A DNA stretch of 43,583 bases. Source: Bifidobacterium breve. Its GTDB lineage: Bacteria; Actinomycetota; Actinomycetes; S36-B12. Location: assembly GCA_945861925.1 (NCBI GenBank), contig CAMAWO010000003.1, positions 1 to 43,583 of the forward strand, in the 5' to 3' direction. Under the pieces are notes generated by a model. It worked only from the letters and a program-made list of their open reading frames with translations. It was not told where the DNA came from and did no database searches. How positions within the stretch are numbered: the stretch's first letter is position 1; the number at the start of each line of letters is the position of its first letter. Positions 2,042 through 13,364 of the stretch are shown in pieces. Both the position numbers and the translations under genes were made by a program.

Positions 2042-2386
2042 ATGCACCACAACTCACGTTTGGCCAGCATCACCGTTGCACTCGGGTTGGCGGTGACGGC
2101 GATGGCTGGTTGCTCCGTCAGTGGGAGCATTGGAGGAAATTCAGTCGACAAGGGAGAACTCGCGGTGCAAGCCGTGGCCGCTCTGGAAGCGCAGACGGGT
2201 ACGACCATGGACCCGTCCGAGTCGGTGACCTGCCTCGAGGATCTCAACACGGATGCCGGCAGCATCGCGATGTGTGAATACAAAACGGCAAGTGGAGGCG
2301 TCTTCGACGTGACGGTGACCTCCGACGGTATTGGGTCAGATGACAAGGTGGCCTTCTCTGTCGTGGTGAGCGACACGCCCCGATAG
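2042..2386 (+). CDS. Small lipoprotein, DUF4333-like
   Basis: Lipobox VTAMAGC; C-terminal fold resembling DUF4333 (ESVTCLEDLNTDAGSIAMCEY..GVFDVTVTS); SD AAGGAG upstream. Confidence 0.65.
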   Translation: MHHNSRLASITVALGLAVTAMAGCSVSGSIGGNSVDKGELAVQAVAALEAQTGTTMDPSESVTCLEDLNTDAGSIAMCEYKTASGGVFDVTVTSDGIGSDDKVAFSVVVSDTPR

Positions 2387-2477
2387 GTCAGCATGGCGGC
2401 GGATCGACGGCGGCGGAGATCGGCTTTACGTCGTTTCAATGCCGCGCTGACGAGGCTGAAGCACGCATACTCAGTGG

Positions 2478-3287
2478 GTGCATCGACTCCTCCAGCGACT
2501 GCGCGCCGCGCCCCGGCGTCTCGTGGTCGTCGTCCTCGTCGCGAGTGTAGGGATCGTTGGGATTCCGGTGGCAGCCACGGGTACCTCGTTACTGGTCCGC
2601 CTCGCGAGCACGGGTGCGCAGGCAGCCTCCTACACGCCAATGGCTGAGCTCGCCAAGCGCCGCGACCCTCGGTGGCCAAACCGCATCGGCTGGCAGGGCT
2701 GCCCGGCCCCGATCTGGCCCTCGAACGTGGCCGAGGGCGCGCCGGGCAACGGCAGGAGGGTCCTCGTCGTGGGGGATTCCCTCGTTCGCGAGTCGAGGAC
2801 CCGCCTCATGACCCTGCTTCGCGACAGTGGCTGGGCGCCCACTGTTCGATGCTGGGGTGGTAGGCGGCTGGACTGGGTAAGCGACCAGATCAGCCGTGCC
2901 AAGAAGATCGATCAGCTCCCGAGCACCGTCATCGTGGTGGTCGGAACGAATGACATGCGCTGGGTCTCCAGGCCGGTCACGAAGGCGCGGATGCGATCAC
3001 TCGTCGAGCAGATTGGTTCGGACCGCGAGATCCTTTGGGTCAATACCTATGCATCCGGCGCAGACCGGTTCACTCGGCCGAAGGAGCGTTGGTTCAATCG
3101 TCAGCTGCGAAGGTTGGCGCGACAGCATGACAACGTCACGATTGTCGATTGGTCGTCTCAGGCACGGACACGCGGTGTTCGATTTGCAGATGGCCTTCAC
3201 TATCGCCCAAAGGGTCGACGGTTGTTGGCGGAGGTCATCGCAGATGACCTTGACCGAATCCAGAGCACGAGCGACGGCCGAGGTTAA
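2478..3287 (+). CDS. SGNH/GDSL-like hydrolase, secreted or membrane-anchored
   Basis: N-terminal hydrophobic segment; VLVVGDSLVRES (block I), VVVGTNDMRW (block III), DGLHYRPKGRRLLA (block V D-x-x-H). Confidence 0.85.
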   Translation: MHRLLQRLRAAPRRLVVVVLVASVGIVGIPVAATGTSLLVRLASTGAQAASYTPMAELAKRRDPRWPNRIGWQGCPAPIWPSNVAEGAPGNGRRVLVVGDSLVRESRTRLMTLLRDSGWAPTVRCWGGRRLDWVSDQISRAKKIDQLPSTVIVVVGTNDMRWVSRPVTKARMRSLVEQIGSDREILWVNTYASGADRFTRPKERWFNRQLRRLARQHDNVTIVDWSSQARTRGVRFADGLHYRPKGRRLLAEVIADDLDRIQSTSDGRG

Positions 3288-10173: not shown

Positions 10174-12225
10174 TCACCGACTGATGAGTTCCTTGTCGGA
10201 CTGGCGCTGGCCAACCAAGACAGCGATGAGGTAGAGGCCGGCCGCGACGGCGAGGAGCCACTGGTAGCCGAGCACGAGCGATAGGTACTCCAGGCATCCG
10301 CCAACCATGGCCCCGAACAGGTTGGCCGCAAATGCAGCGGTTGGGTTCGCGGCATTCTTGAATCGCGAGGTGAAGAGCAGGTTCGCGAAGAACACCGGAG
10401 CGAAGGCGATCGCGACCGCGAAGAGCAGTCGAAGCGGTACGGCGAGGCCCAGGAGCGTCTCGTTCGGGATGAGGAAGGCGACGAGGAGTGACGCGAACAG
10501 AGCGGTGATGATGAAGGGTCTGGGAATCGGCCCGCGGGCGCGCTGGGTCACCTCGATAGCGAGGAGGACGGCGACGAGGACGCCCGTGAATACCAGCGCA
10601 TTCACGAGCCACGTTGTGCCGAAGAGTAGGGCGAATGTCGTGATCGACCTCGTCTCAAGGAGAAGGAAGGCCGCTCCCATGAAGAACAGGTCGCCGTATC
10701 CGCGCATCGCTTTGAACGGCCCACCAAAGACGCGGATGCCGATGAGTGACACACCGAGGATGAGGGCGATGACGATGAGGTAGATCGGCGGGATCGTCTG
10801 CGTTTTGAGATACAGGAACGGCCGGTCGTCGACGGCTGGCACGGGAATCTCCTGTGCAGCAGCAGCGATGGCGACTCGGTCCCACGTGGCACCAGGGGCA
10901 CACACCGCGTTGTCGGCGTTCTTGCCGATGGTGATCGCGGCGAGCGACTGCACGGCGGTGAAGGTGTCGAGGCAGGGCGCATGCCCGAAGACCTCGTCGA
11001 GGGTGCCGGCGAGCCGGTTGATGAGCCACGGCTCGCGGTAGTAGTTGTACATCGCGAACACGCCATCGTCCGTCAGATGATCGCGTGCAGCGGTGATGGA
11101 CTCCTCGGTGAACAGGTACGACTCGAGCCGCAGCTGGCTCGCCCCGGAGACAAGGGTGAGGGAGTCGGGGAGGGCGAAGAGGATGAGGTCGTACTTGTTG
11201 TCGTTGCCGGACAGGAAGGCGCGTCCATCATTGATATGGACCGAGACGCGCGGATCGTCATAGGGCTTATTGGGATTGACCTGACTGCCGATCTGCTGGA
11301 TCCGAGGGTCGATCTCGACGGCGTCGACATGCTTGGCGCCGCGGGAAAGAGCGAGGGCGACATCGGTTCCGGTGCCGGCGCCGACAACGAGCACGTTGCC
11401 CAGCGGGTTGTCGATCGCGCGCTCGTAGGGACGGCCGTAGACGGGCTCGGCCTTGAGCCGCTGCTCGACATCCATGACGTTTTGGTGCGGGATGCCGTTC
11501 ACCTGGATATTCGTGAACTCATTGATGGTGCCGGCATTTTGGATCTGGGTTTGGACCTTGTAGTACGGGGACCATGAGATGCCCGCCATGAGCGATTCGA
11601 CGACAAGGGTGCCGATGATGAGCACCATGGCGATTCGTGAGACCCACGGAAGGCCAGGGCCGTAGAGGAGCCACAGTGCGATGAGAGTGATGATCGGCCA
11701 GACCCACGACGGCGCCCGCAGGAACGCAATAAGGGTGAACGAAAGGGTGCCGAGAATCGAGCCGATGATGTCCCACCGGTAGGCGTCGAGGGCCTTGAAC
11801 TCGCGGAAGGCGCGGCCGGTGATCTCGCCGAAGCCGGTCATCGTGATGGCGATGACGATGAAGACGAGGGGGAGCGAGACCCAGGTGGGCAGGCCGGTCG
11901 GGCGAACCTCGGTGAAGAAGATGAGATCGGTTGACGAGCCCTCGATGCGGGCGGGGAAGAGCATGATGAAGGCGACGAGCAGGACAAGGCCGAGGGGGAC
12001 GTAGCGGCCGAAGTCGTTTGAGGTGCGTGAGCGCAAGAAGCCCAGGCCGATGCCGAGGAAGCTCGCGAGCAGGATGAGGTTTGAGAAGTAGGAGAGGTGG
12101 ACGAGGTTGGCACCCGACCATCTGATGAGGGCGAGCTGGACGAACAGCATGAGGGCGCTCGCCACGATGAGGCGGGCACGACCAGTGAGAACTCGTTCGC
12201 CTCGCAGCAAGGATGTGGTACTCAC
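10174..12225 (-). CDS. Polytopic membrane protein with spermidine-synthase-like domain
   Basis: Multiple TM segments around NVLVVGAGTGTDVALALSRGAKHVDAVEIDPRIQQIG...DDPRVSVHINDGRAFLSGNDNKYDLILFALPDS. Confidence 0.85.
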   Translation of the reverse strand: MSTTSLLRGERVLTGRARLIVASALMLFVQLALIRWSGANLVHLSYFSNLILLASFLGIGLGFLRSRTSNDFGRYVPLGLVLLVAFIMLFPARIEGSSTDLIFFTEVRPTGLPTWVSLPLVFIVIAITMTGFGEITGRAFREFKALDAYRWDIIGSILGTLSFTLIAFLRAPSWVWPIITLIALWLLYGPGLPWVSRIAMVLIIGTLVVESLMAGISWSPYYKVQTQIQNAGTINEFTNIQVNGIPHQNVMDVEQRLKAEPVYGRPYERAIDNPLGNVLVVGAGTGTDVALALSRGAKHVDAVEIDPRIQQIGSQVNPNKPYDDPRVSVHINDGRAFLSGNDNKYDLILFALPDSLTLVSGASQLRLESYLFTEESITAARDHLTDDGVFAMYNYYREPWLINRLAGTLDEVFGHAPCLDTFTAVQSLAAITIGKNADNAVCAPGATWDRVAIAAAAQEIPVPAVDDRPFLYLKTQTIPPIYLIVIALILGVSLIGIRVFGGPFKAMRGYGDLFFMGAAFLLLETRSITTFALLFGTTWLVNALVFTGVLVAVLLAIEVTQRARGPIPRPFIITALFASLLVAFLIPNETLLGLAVPLRLLFAVAIAFAPVFFANLLFTSRFKNAANPTAAFAANLFGAMVGGCLEYLSLVLGYQWLLAVAAGLYLIAVLVGQRQSDKELISR

Positions 12226-12321
12226 CGGGTCAGGCTAGTGCCTGCCGGCTTGGGGGCGGAATGGCCCGTCCCGGTTGGCTGAACAGTGCATCCCCACCCG
12301 CACCCAACGTCCAGCCCCCTT

Positions 12322-12352
12322 GTCATTTCAGCCGGAATCCGGCTGAAATGAC
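12322..12352. repeat. Palindrome P1 (14-bp stem, 3-nt loop)
   Basis: GTCATTTCAGCCGG-AAT-CCGGCTGAAATGAC. Confidence 0.9.
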
Positions 12353-12542
12353 CAGAAGAGTGGTTACTTGACGCTCTTCTTGGTCATTTCGACCAGAAAC
12401 AACGCTGATGGTGCGAATTGGCCCGTCGAACGCCTGCCATTGAGCGGACTCTCGTCGAATTCGATGCCGCGGTGTCTGGGGGTGGCGCCCTTGAGCAGTG
12501 GGATGAAATGACCTGGTTGTGAGTGATTTGACCAGATATTCG

Positions 12543-12573
12543 GTCGTTTCAGCCGGATGCTGGATGAAACGAC
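12543..12573. repeat. Palindrome P2, diverged copy of P1
   Basis: GTCGTTTCAGCCGG-ATG-CTGGATGAAACGAC; same length as P1 with a compensatory A-T to G-C pair. Confidence 0.85.
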
Positions 12574-12614
12574 GGGGGGTGGGAAGGGGTGGGTCGCGAA
12601 CTTAGACTTCAGGG

Positions 12615-13364
12615 GTGTTTTCGATCATTGCGCCAGAGCAGGTGTCAGGCCTGGCCTGGTGGCCACCGCTGGCAGTTGTCGTTCTCCTCGTCGTCATCAA
12701 CATCGTGAACAACAGGGTGGCGCCGCAAACGCACTACCTGCTGTGGTCCTTTGGAGGCTCAGTCCTCCTCCTCGCGGTGGGCTTTCTCGACGGAAACTCC
12801 TGGACGGACATGGGCTTGGGTTGGCGGTTCCTCCTTCCGGGCCTCATCTGGGCGGCGGCCTCCATCGGGATCATCACCGCCGTCTACGTCATCGGGTCGC
12901 TCTTTCGCCGAACCCGTGCAGCGTTCCACGACGAGCGGATGGCCGAGATGTCTGCTGGCCGCCTGATGTTCCAAGCGTTGATCGAGGTTCCGTTTGGGAC
13001 CGTGCTCTTTGAGGAGATCGCCTTTCGCGGGGTGCTGTTCGCGATGCTCGCCCGCCGATACGGGCTTGTCTGGGCACTTGTGGGCTCAGCGCTGCTGTTC
13101 GGGCTGTGGCACATCCTGCCGTCGATCGGCACGCACGAGCAGAATCCGGCGCTCGGTTCGGTCGTCGGGGAGGGGCGCAGGGGCAACATTCTCGCGGTGC
13201 TCCTCAGCGTGTTCACGACCGCGCTCGCCGGCATTCTGTTCGGCGGACTGCGCGTGCTCTCGGGCAGCGTGCTCGCCCCGATGGGCTTCCACTGGGGGAC
13301 GAATGGGCTCGGCTACGCGTTCAGTTGGGTTCTTATCAGGGCGCGGGAACGTCGCGCAAGGTGA
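12615..13364 (+). CDS. CPBP-family (Abi/CAAX-like) intramembrane metalloprotease
   Basis: FEEIAFRGVLFAML (EExxxR), FGLWHILPS, FGGLRVLSGSVLAPMGFHWGTN. Confidence 0.88.
   Translation: MFSIIAPEQVSGLAWWPPLAVVVLLVVINIVNNRVAPQTHYLLWSFGGSVLLLAVGFLDGNSWTDMGLGWRFLLPGLIWAAASIGIITAVYVIGSLFRRTRAAFHDERMAEMSAGRLMFQALIEVPFGTVLFEEIAFRGVLFAMLARRYGLVWALVGSALLFGLWHILPSIGTHEQNPALGSVVGEGRRGNILAVLLSVFTTALAGILFGGLRVLSGSVLAPMGFHWGTNGLGYAFSWVLIRARERRAR

Follow-up and report, generated by a model that had tools for sequence, protein, structure and literature searches.

Two inverted copies of a dispersed, REP-like repeat with phased motifs in an actinobacterial genome

The window, by which we mean the whole 43,583-nucleotide stretch of DNA that was analysed, holds between its SpeE-like and CPBP genes an inverted pair of repeat units, which we read, with about even confidence, as members of an old REP-like family that is dispersed and specific to the genus, each unit serving as a phased array of double-stranded DNA sites for a putative protein at gene ends. 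The two halves of this reading are not equally firm. We are much surer that the repeat is dispersed, REP-like and under constraint than we are of the step to protein binding.

Two inverted units between divergent genes

The original prediction for this region was a set of six alternating copies of GTC(A/G)TTTC/GAAA(T/C)GAC, at 12322, 12345, 12383, 12505, 12543 and 12566, with the outer pairs forming two 31-nt hairpins. All six copies are where they were placed, and GAAAYGAC is enriched in the window as a whole (nine occurrences against 2.56 expected, with nine or more in none of 100 shuffles). Hairpins P1 (12322-12352) and P2 (12543-12573) exist too. The description was nonetheless incomplete: the six sites and both hairpins are portions of a larger element, two inverted units of about 85 bp with G/C tracts, and the element is present in many copies.

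A single unit is free of gaps and carries four copies of GGNTGAAATGACCA, in the orientations +, +, - and +, spaced by 20-21 bp and followed by a G-tract. The consensus runs GGATGAAATGACCA, spacer, nnGTCAAATGACCA, spacer, TGGTCATTTCAGCC-GGATTC-tGGATGAAATGAC, G-tract. When a motif matrix was slid along the whole unit, peaks appeared at columns 5 (+), 25 (+, weaker), 45 (-) and 66 (+), giving spacings of 20, 20 and 21 bp; since motifs 1 and 4 had supplied the matrix, it is motifs 2 and 3 that provide independent evidence. A spacing of 20-21 bp corresponds to two turns of the double helix.

At the window locus, unit A (12308-12394, minus strand; profile match 12396-12311, E=2.4e-22) is a complete unit that aligns without gaps to 33 other copies. 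It comprises motif 1 (GGTCGAAATGACCA; 12381-12394, minus), the degenerate motif 2 (12361-12374, minus; model columns 25-38), motif 3 (GGCTGAAATGACCA; 12341-12354, plus), which is inverted inside the unit, motif 4 (GGCTGAAATGACAA; 12320-12333, minus) and the outer G-tract (12308-12321, minus), which reads as a C-tract on the plus strand. Unit B (12501-12587, plus strand; profile match 12500-12583, E=5.1e-19) is inverted with respect to A, with motif 1 (GGATGAAATGACCT; 12501-12514, plus), a degenerate motif 2 (12521-12534, plus), an inverted motif 3 (12541-12554, minus), motif 4 (GGATGAAACGACGG; 12562-12575, plus) and its own G-tract (12574-12587, plus). The profile behind these scores was built from the repeat and returned nothing at E<10 from 3.5 Mb of shuffled window. 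P1 and P2 are simply motifs 3 and 4 of their units placed head-to-head, an imperfect palindrome with a 14-bp stem and a 3-nt loop. Between the units lies a 106-bp spacer (12395-12500) that is not repeated elsewhere in the genome (best match E=0.27). The neighbours are a SpeE-like membrane protein with a Spermine_synth domain (10174-12225, minus strand; PF01564, E=1.7e-9) and a CPBP/Rce1-like protease (12615-13364, plus strand; PF02517, E=2.6e-16).

A family kept in place at gene ends

The motif is far from unique to this locus. Copy counts, which rest on searches of the genome, come to at least 40 distinct units in the 3.67-Mb genome of this uncultured actinobacterium (counted from the table of profile matches); two congeners have comparable numbers. 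When at most one mismatch is allowed, GTCATTTCAGCCGG has 20 matches in the genome and GGNTGAAATGACCA has 48 sites, most of them inside units; the reversed pattern gave zero in both cases. BLAST with the region hits about 25 further significant places, all of them to parts of the unit and never to the A-B spacer, and an alignment of 34 copies spans 91 columns and is nearly free of gaps. A sequence-only profile yields 67 matches here and 58, 32, 60 and 60 in four congeners, counts that contain opposite-strand duplicates; in one congener, G004, the matches are weak and come from diverged copies, and in other genera there are either none or a few weak ones. Across 84,980 GTDB genomes, the core pattern was found only in contigs of three congeneric metagenome-assembled genomes (MAGs) and in one Rhodobacterales contig, an outcome that by our own estimate is about what chance would give for that lone contig. 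Searches with the repeat gave no match of note in Rfam and zero matches among plasmid and phage records.

Units that lie close together as separate copies always point their G-tracts outward. At a few loci (C23, C29 and C31; L132, L130 and L129) two units share a common hairpin, and the dyads at C31, C29 and C23 form a near-palindrome of about 117 bp that is conserved in G001 and/or G003, two of the congeners. There is also a second subfamily of units, in which GATGAAC/GTTCATC replaces the TGACC motif copies (L136 1962-2051, L137 256-345 and L138 1982-2071); similar letters occur in loci of G004.

Most units of this genome have an orthologue at the equivalent place in G001 and/or G003; the units are mostly inherited vertically. 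In 56 comparisons of orthologous units, divergence was 7.7% in motif 1, 10.6% in motif 2 and 7.2% in motifs 3 and 4 together, against 22% in the spacers and 31% in the G-tract. This set comes mostly from profile matches and is biased toward conserved copies. The few orthologues found from flanks only (two of them full-length) show a divergence pattern that agrees with it. A flank-based search in which the unit itself was not used found it kept in G003 at C8, C37b, C62 and C294, and G003 without it at C33, C39 and C50b. As judged from these alignments, the motif positions are under selective constraint across species.

One pair of units, at C97 (L111), encloses a gene for a 329-residue protein (2173-3162), which sits at the equivalent place in four species (also G001 C47, G002 C103 and G003 C14). 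The protein has a DUF559/AbiEi-like appearance, with a weak AbiEi_4 match just under the cut-off. We considered it as an autonomous partner of the repeat and rejected it, because the gene is fixed at one orthologous place and other pairs enclose other genes.

The family also has a preferred address. The outer end of the unit, with hairpin and G-tract, adjoins the 3' end of a gene in 52 of 80 units (22/35, 19/27 and 11/18 in three genomes), counts that are not independent, since the three genomes share many orthologous loci, and that use gene calls from a simple script. The distance from outer end to stop codon is mostly within about 40 nt, and several units contain the stop codon itself. The window locus departs from this pattern: both of its units stand at the 5' ends of divergent genes.

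DNA sites, RNA structures or transposon ends

Taken together with the phasing of the motifs, the constraint on them suggests sequence-specific binding of double-stranded DNA by a putative protein. Such a protein might dock cooperatively on one helix face of the four-site array and, once docked, could act as a boundary or a transcription roadblock at gene ends; a role as nucleoid anchor would be an alternative. The hairpins would then be a by-product of the facing motifs 3 and 4. Against this reading, the units at the window locus lie at 5' ends, and structures acting at the level of RNA would also produce a location at 3' ends.

The hairpins deserve a closer look, since a base-pair compensation at stem position 4 (A-T in P1, G-C in P2) had been put forward. 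The difference itself is real. As compensation it does not hold up across the family: in the 34 copies, 84.5% of hairpin cells are paired where shuffles give 83.9% (106 of 500 shuffles reach the observed level), and 76 of 500 shuffles attain the observed covariation score. At columns 50/74, the pair in question, the copies of this genome read AT in 31, AC in two and GC in one, so one copy has changed on both sides and two have a broken pair. Among orthologues there are four double changes, and single-sided changes dominate. Lengthening the stem does not help. The AGAAGAG...CTCTTCT extension is present in this one copy only rather than conserved, and pairing and covariation of the longer stem are no better than in shuffles. 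Wobble mismatches over the two stems show no consistent strand preference. Since the arms vary independently, we rejected the idea that base-pair compensation proves the element to be structured as RNA or single-stranded DNA. Lack of covariation and of a consistent wobble bias would be expected if the units are DNA sites, not if a fold of RNA or of a single strand were under selection, and a DNA motif present in two inverted copies would vary in just this way.

These results bear on the alternative that survives best, which we nevertheless consider unlikely: that the unit acts in RNA when the gene upstream is transcribed, its C-tract and motif-4/motif-3 hairpin, directly behind the stop codon, terminating transcription or protecting the 3' end of the mRNA, a role proposed for many REPs. 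The tight placement behind stop codons would suit such a role, the region as a whole folds better than shuffled sequence whichever strand is taken (z -6.3 and -4.6), and published REPs of like kind are thought to be transcribed (PMC3733652). Against it, we looked at the units for the U-tract that follows a GC-rich stem in an intrinsic terminator and found none, the variation in the stems is as just described, and the constraint on motifs 1 and 2, which the hairpin does not include, comes close to that on the hairpin itself.

The main rival on the question of origin is a transposon with multi-site ends (IS21-, Tn7- or Mu-like): the units would be its ends, alone or in pairs, and its transposase would have been lost or be missing from the assembly. 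We regard this as rather improbable. Ends of that sort carry several transposase-binding repeats (PMC10122671), units here occur in inverted pairs with like ends outward, and the family has dispersed, for which some duplication or transposition process, no longer visible, must once have operated. Yet the pairs enclose unrelated spacers or host genes (purE/purK, for example), copies sit at equivalent places in different species, and no clean empty site was found, the G003 loci that lack a unit being breaks in synteny. Recent mobility is not supported by the present data. The repeated TGGTCA...TGACC spacing resembles that of IS21 ends, and we tried the units in that role and rejected them: the sole convincing istB gene of the genome (C80) has no unit beside it, although the contig breaks off on its left. 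IS21-like terminal repeats of another kind (GTGGCTCA/GTGGTCA) do occur, at the end of L128, near a contig end, and near position 1000 of L070, after the istB gene; they are another repeat family, at which the assembly may break.

A REPIN- or MITE-like nature had also been proposed, and here the general likeness stood while the mechanism did not. The units are palindromic, alternate in orientation, lie between genes and are dispersed in many copies as inverted, REP-like pairs. Mobilisation by a RAYT (Y1) transposase is nonetheless very improbable: a search for PF01797 found it in none of five congeneric genomes, which are 61-92% complete, with controls positive in 5 of 14, and the terminal columns read GTC with a C/G-tract and show no GTAG/GTGG tag. 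As for MITEs, the inverted pairing is shared and a common interior is not, the interior of the present pair being unrepeated; neither target duplications nor clean empty sites were found, with synteny breaks at the G003 loci that lack a unit.

Least credible of all is a cooperative operator that serves the SpeE-like and CPBP genes alone, for, although a multi-site array does lie between these two divergent genes, an equal array stands at dozens of unrelated genes, and G001, G002 and G003 have no unit at either of the two. In those three congeners a CocE-like hydrolase gene is found beside the SpeE-like gene and an OppB-like permease gene beside the CPBP gene, and homology to the window ends at about 12279 and restarts at 12596. 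G004 has the two genes side by side, as here, and the DNA that separates them carries a cluster of GGTCGTTTGMGCCGGATAGYGGMYGAAAYGACC-like palindromes that has diverged.

Relation to known repeats and to sister genera

REP-like repeats without a transposase are common and unexplained. The closest known kind to our family is the RAYT-less REP/BIME repeats, particularly the CGTC REPs, such as Neisseria dRS3 and Rickettsia RPE-4 and RPE-6, which are likewise short intergenic palindromes, often dimers, lying within 20 bp of gene 3' ends and lacking a dedicated transposase (PMC3733652). CGTC REPs are defined by a terminal CGTC (or TGTC/CCTC), a stem of 8-9 bp and a loop of 4-5 nt (PMC3733652), whereas the present units, from an actinobacterial genus, are about 85 bp long, with four phased motif copies, a G-tract, a 14-bp stem and a 3-nt loop. 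In the units GTC is preceded by C in 46%, by A in 27% and by G in 23% (complement of model column 78). With the GTAG REPs, that is REPs, BIMEs and REPINs associated with a RAYT (PMC2817692, PMC3116915), they have in common multi-copy intergenic palindromes, alternating orientation or inverted pairs, and lineage-specific sequences; they differ in lacking the GTAG tag and any RAYT gene that we could find, and in numbering tens of copies where those often exceed 100. We have filed the family under neither heading because tag, stem and loop differ. The ends of IS21, Tn7 and Mu resemble the units in carrying several regularly spaced copies of one protein-binding motif (binding here being putative), and differ in that here one copy is inverted, no transposase lies alongside, positions are conserved between species and interiors are unrelated.

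On such repeats in actinobacteria, including Acidimicrobiia, the literature we searched held nothing relevant, so the family comes from a phylum without one in that literature. In this family selection on a helically phased array of motifs can be measured, units are retained vertically at gene ends and the motif changes from genus to genus, which makes testable the question of whether REP-like repeats are relics or functional protein sites.

The change of motif is seen in sister genera. Genus g4 (G007 and G019; loci L231-L246) has a repeat family of its own with other motif letters, for example GGGCGAAATCGCCA, and shares with ours the C-tract, the facing pair, the distal motif copy and the position behind stop codons. 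In genus g11 (G014; loci L247-L254) there are GCGTTTCCCCCGGATTCCGGGGGAAACG-type repeats flanked by C/G-tracts. The palindromes of all three genomes are dispersed, and many lie directly behind stop codons. From the g4 and g11 families we conclude that one layout comes back with different letters in each genus, as if the letters followed a trans-acting factor. A wider proposal, which is speculative and which we think doubtful, is that these are family-wide marker sites for gene ends in an actinobacterial lineage, phased 3'-end arrays that would work as roadblocks or chromosome-domain boundaries, with a putative fast-evolving DNA-binding protein forcing the genus-specific letters.

A last observation concerns names. 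The congeneric MAG records CAMCSO01, CAMDKQ01 and CALPZT02 (about 2-3.3 Mb) are titled Bifidobacterium breve, and their size and their kinship to this genome suggest that the label is wrong.
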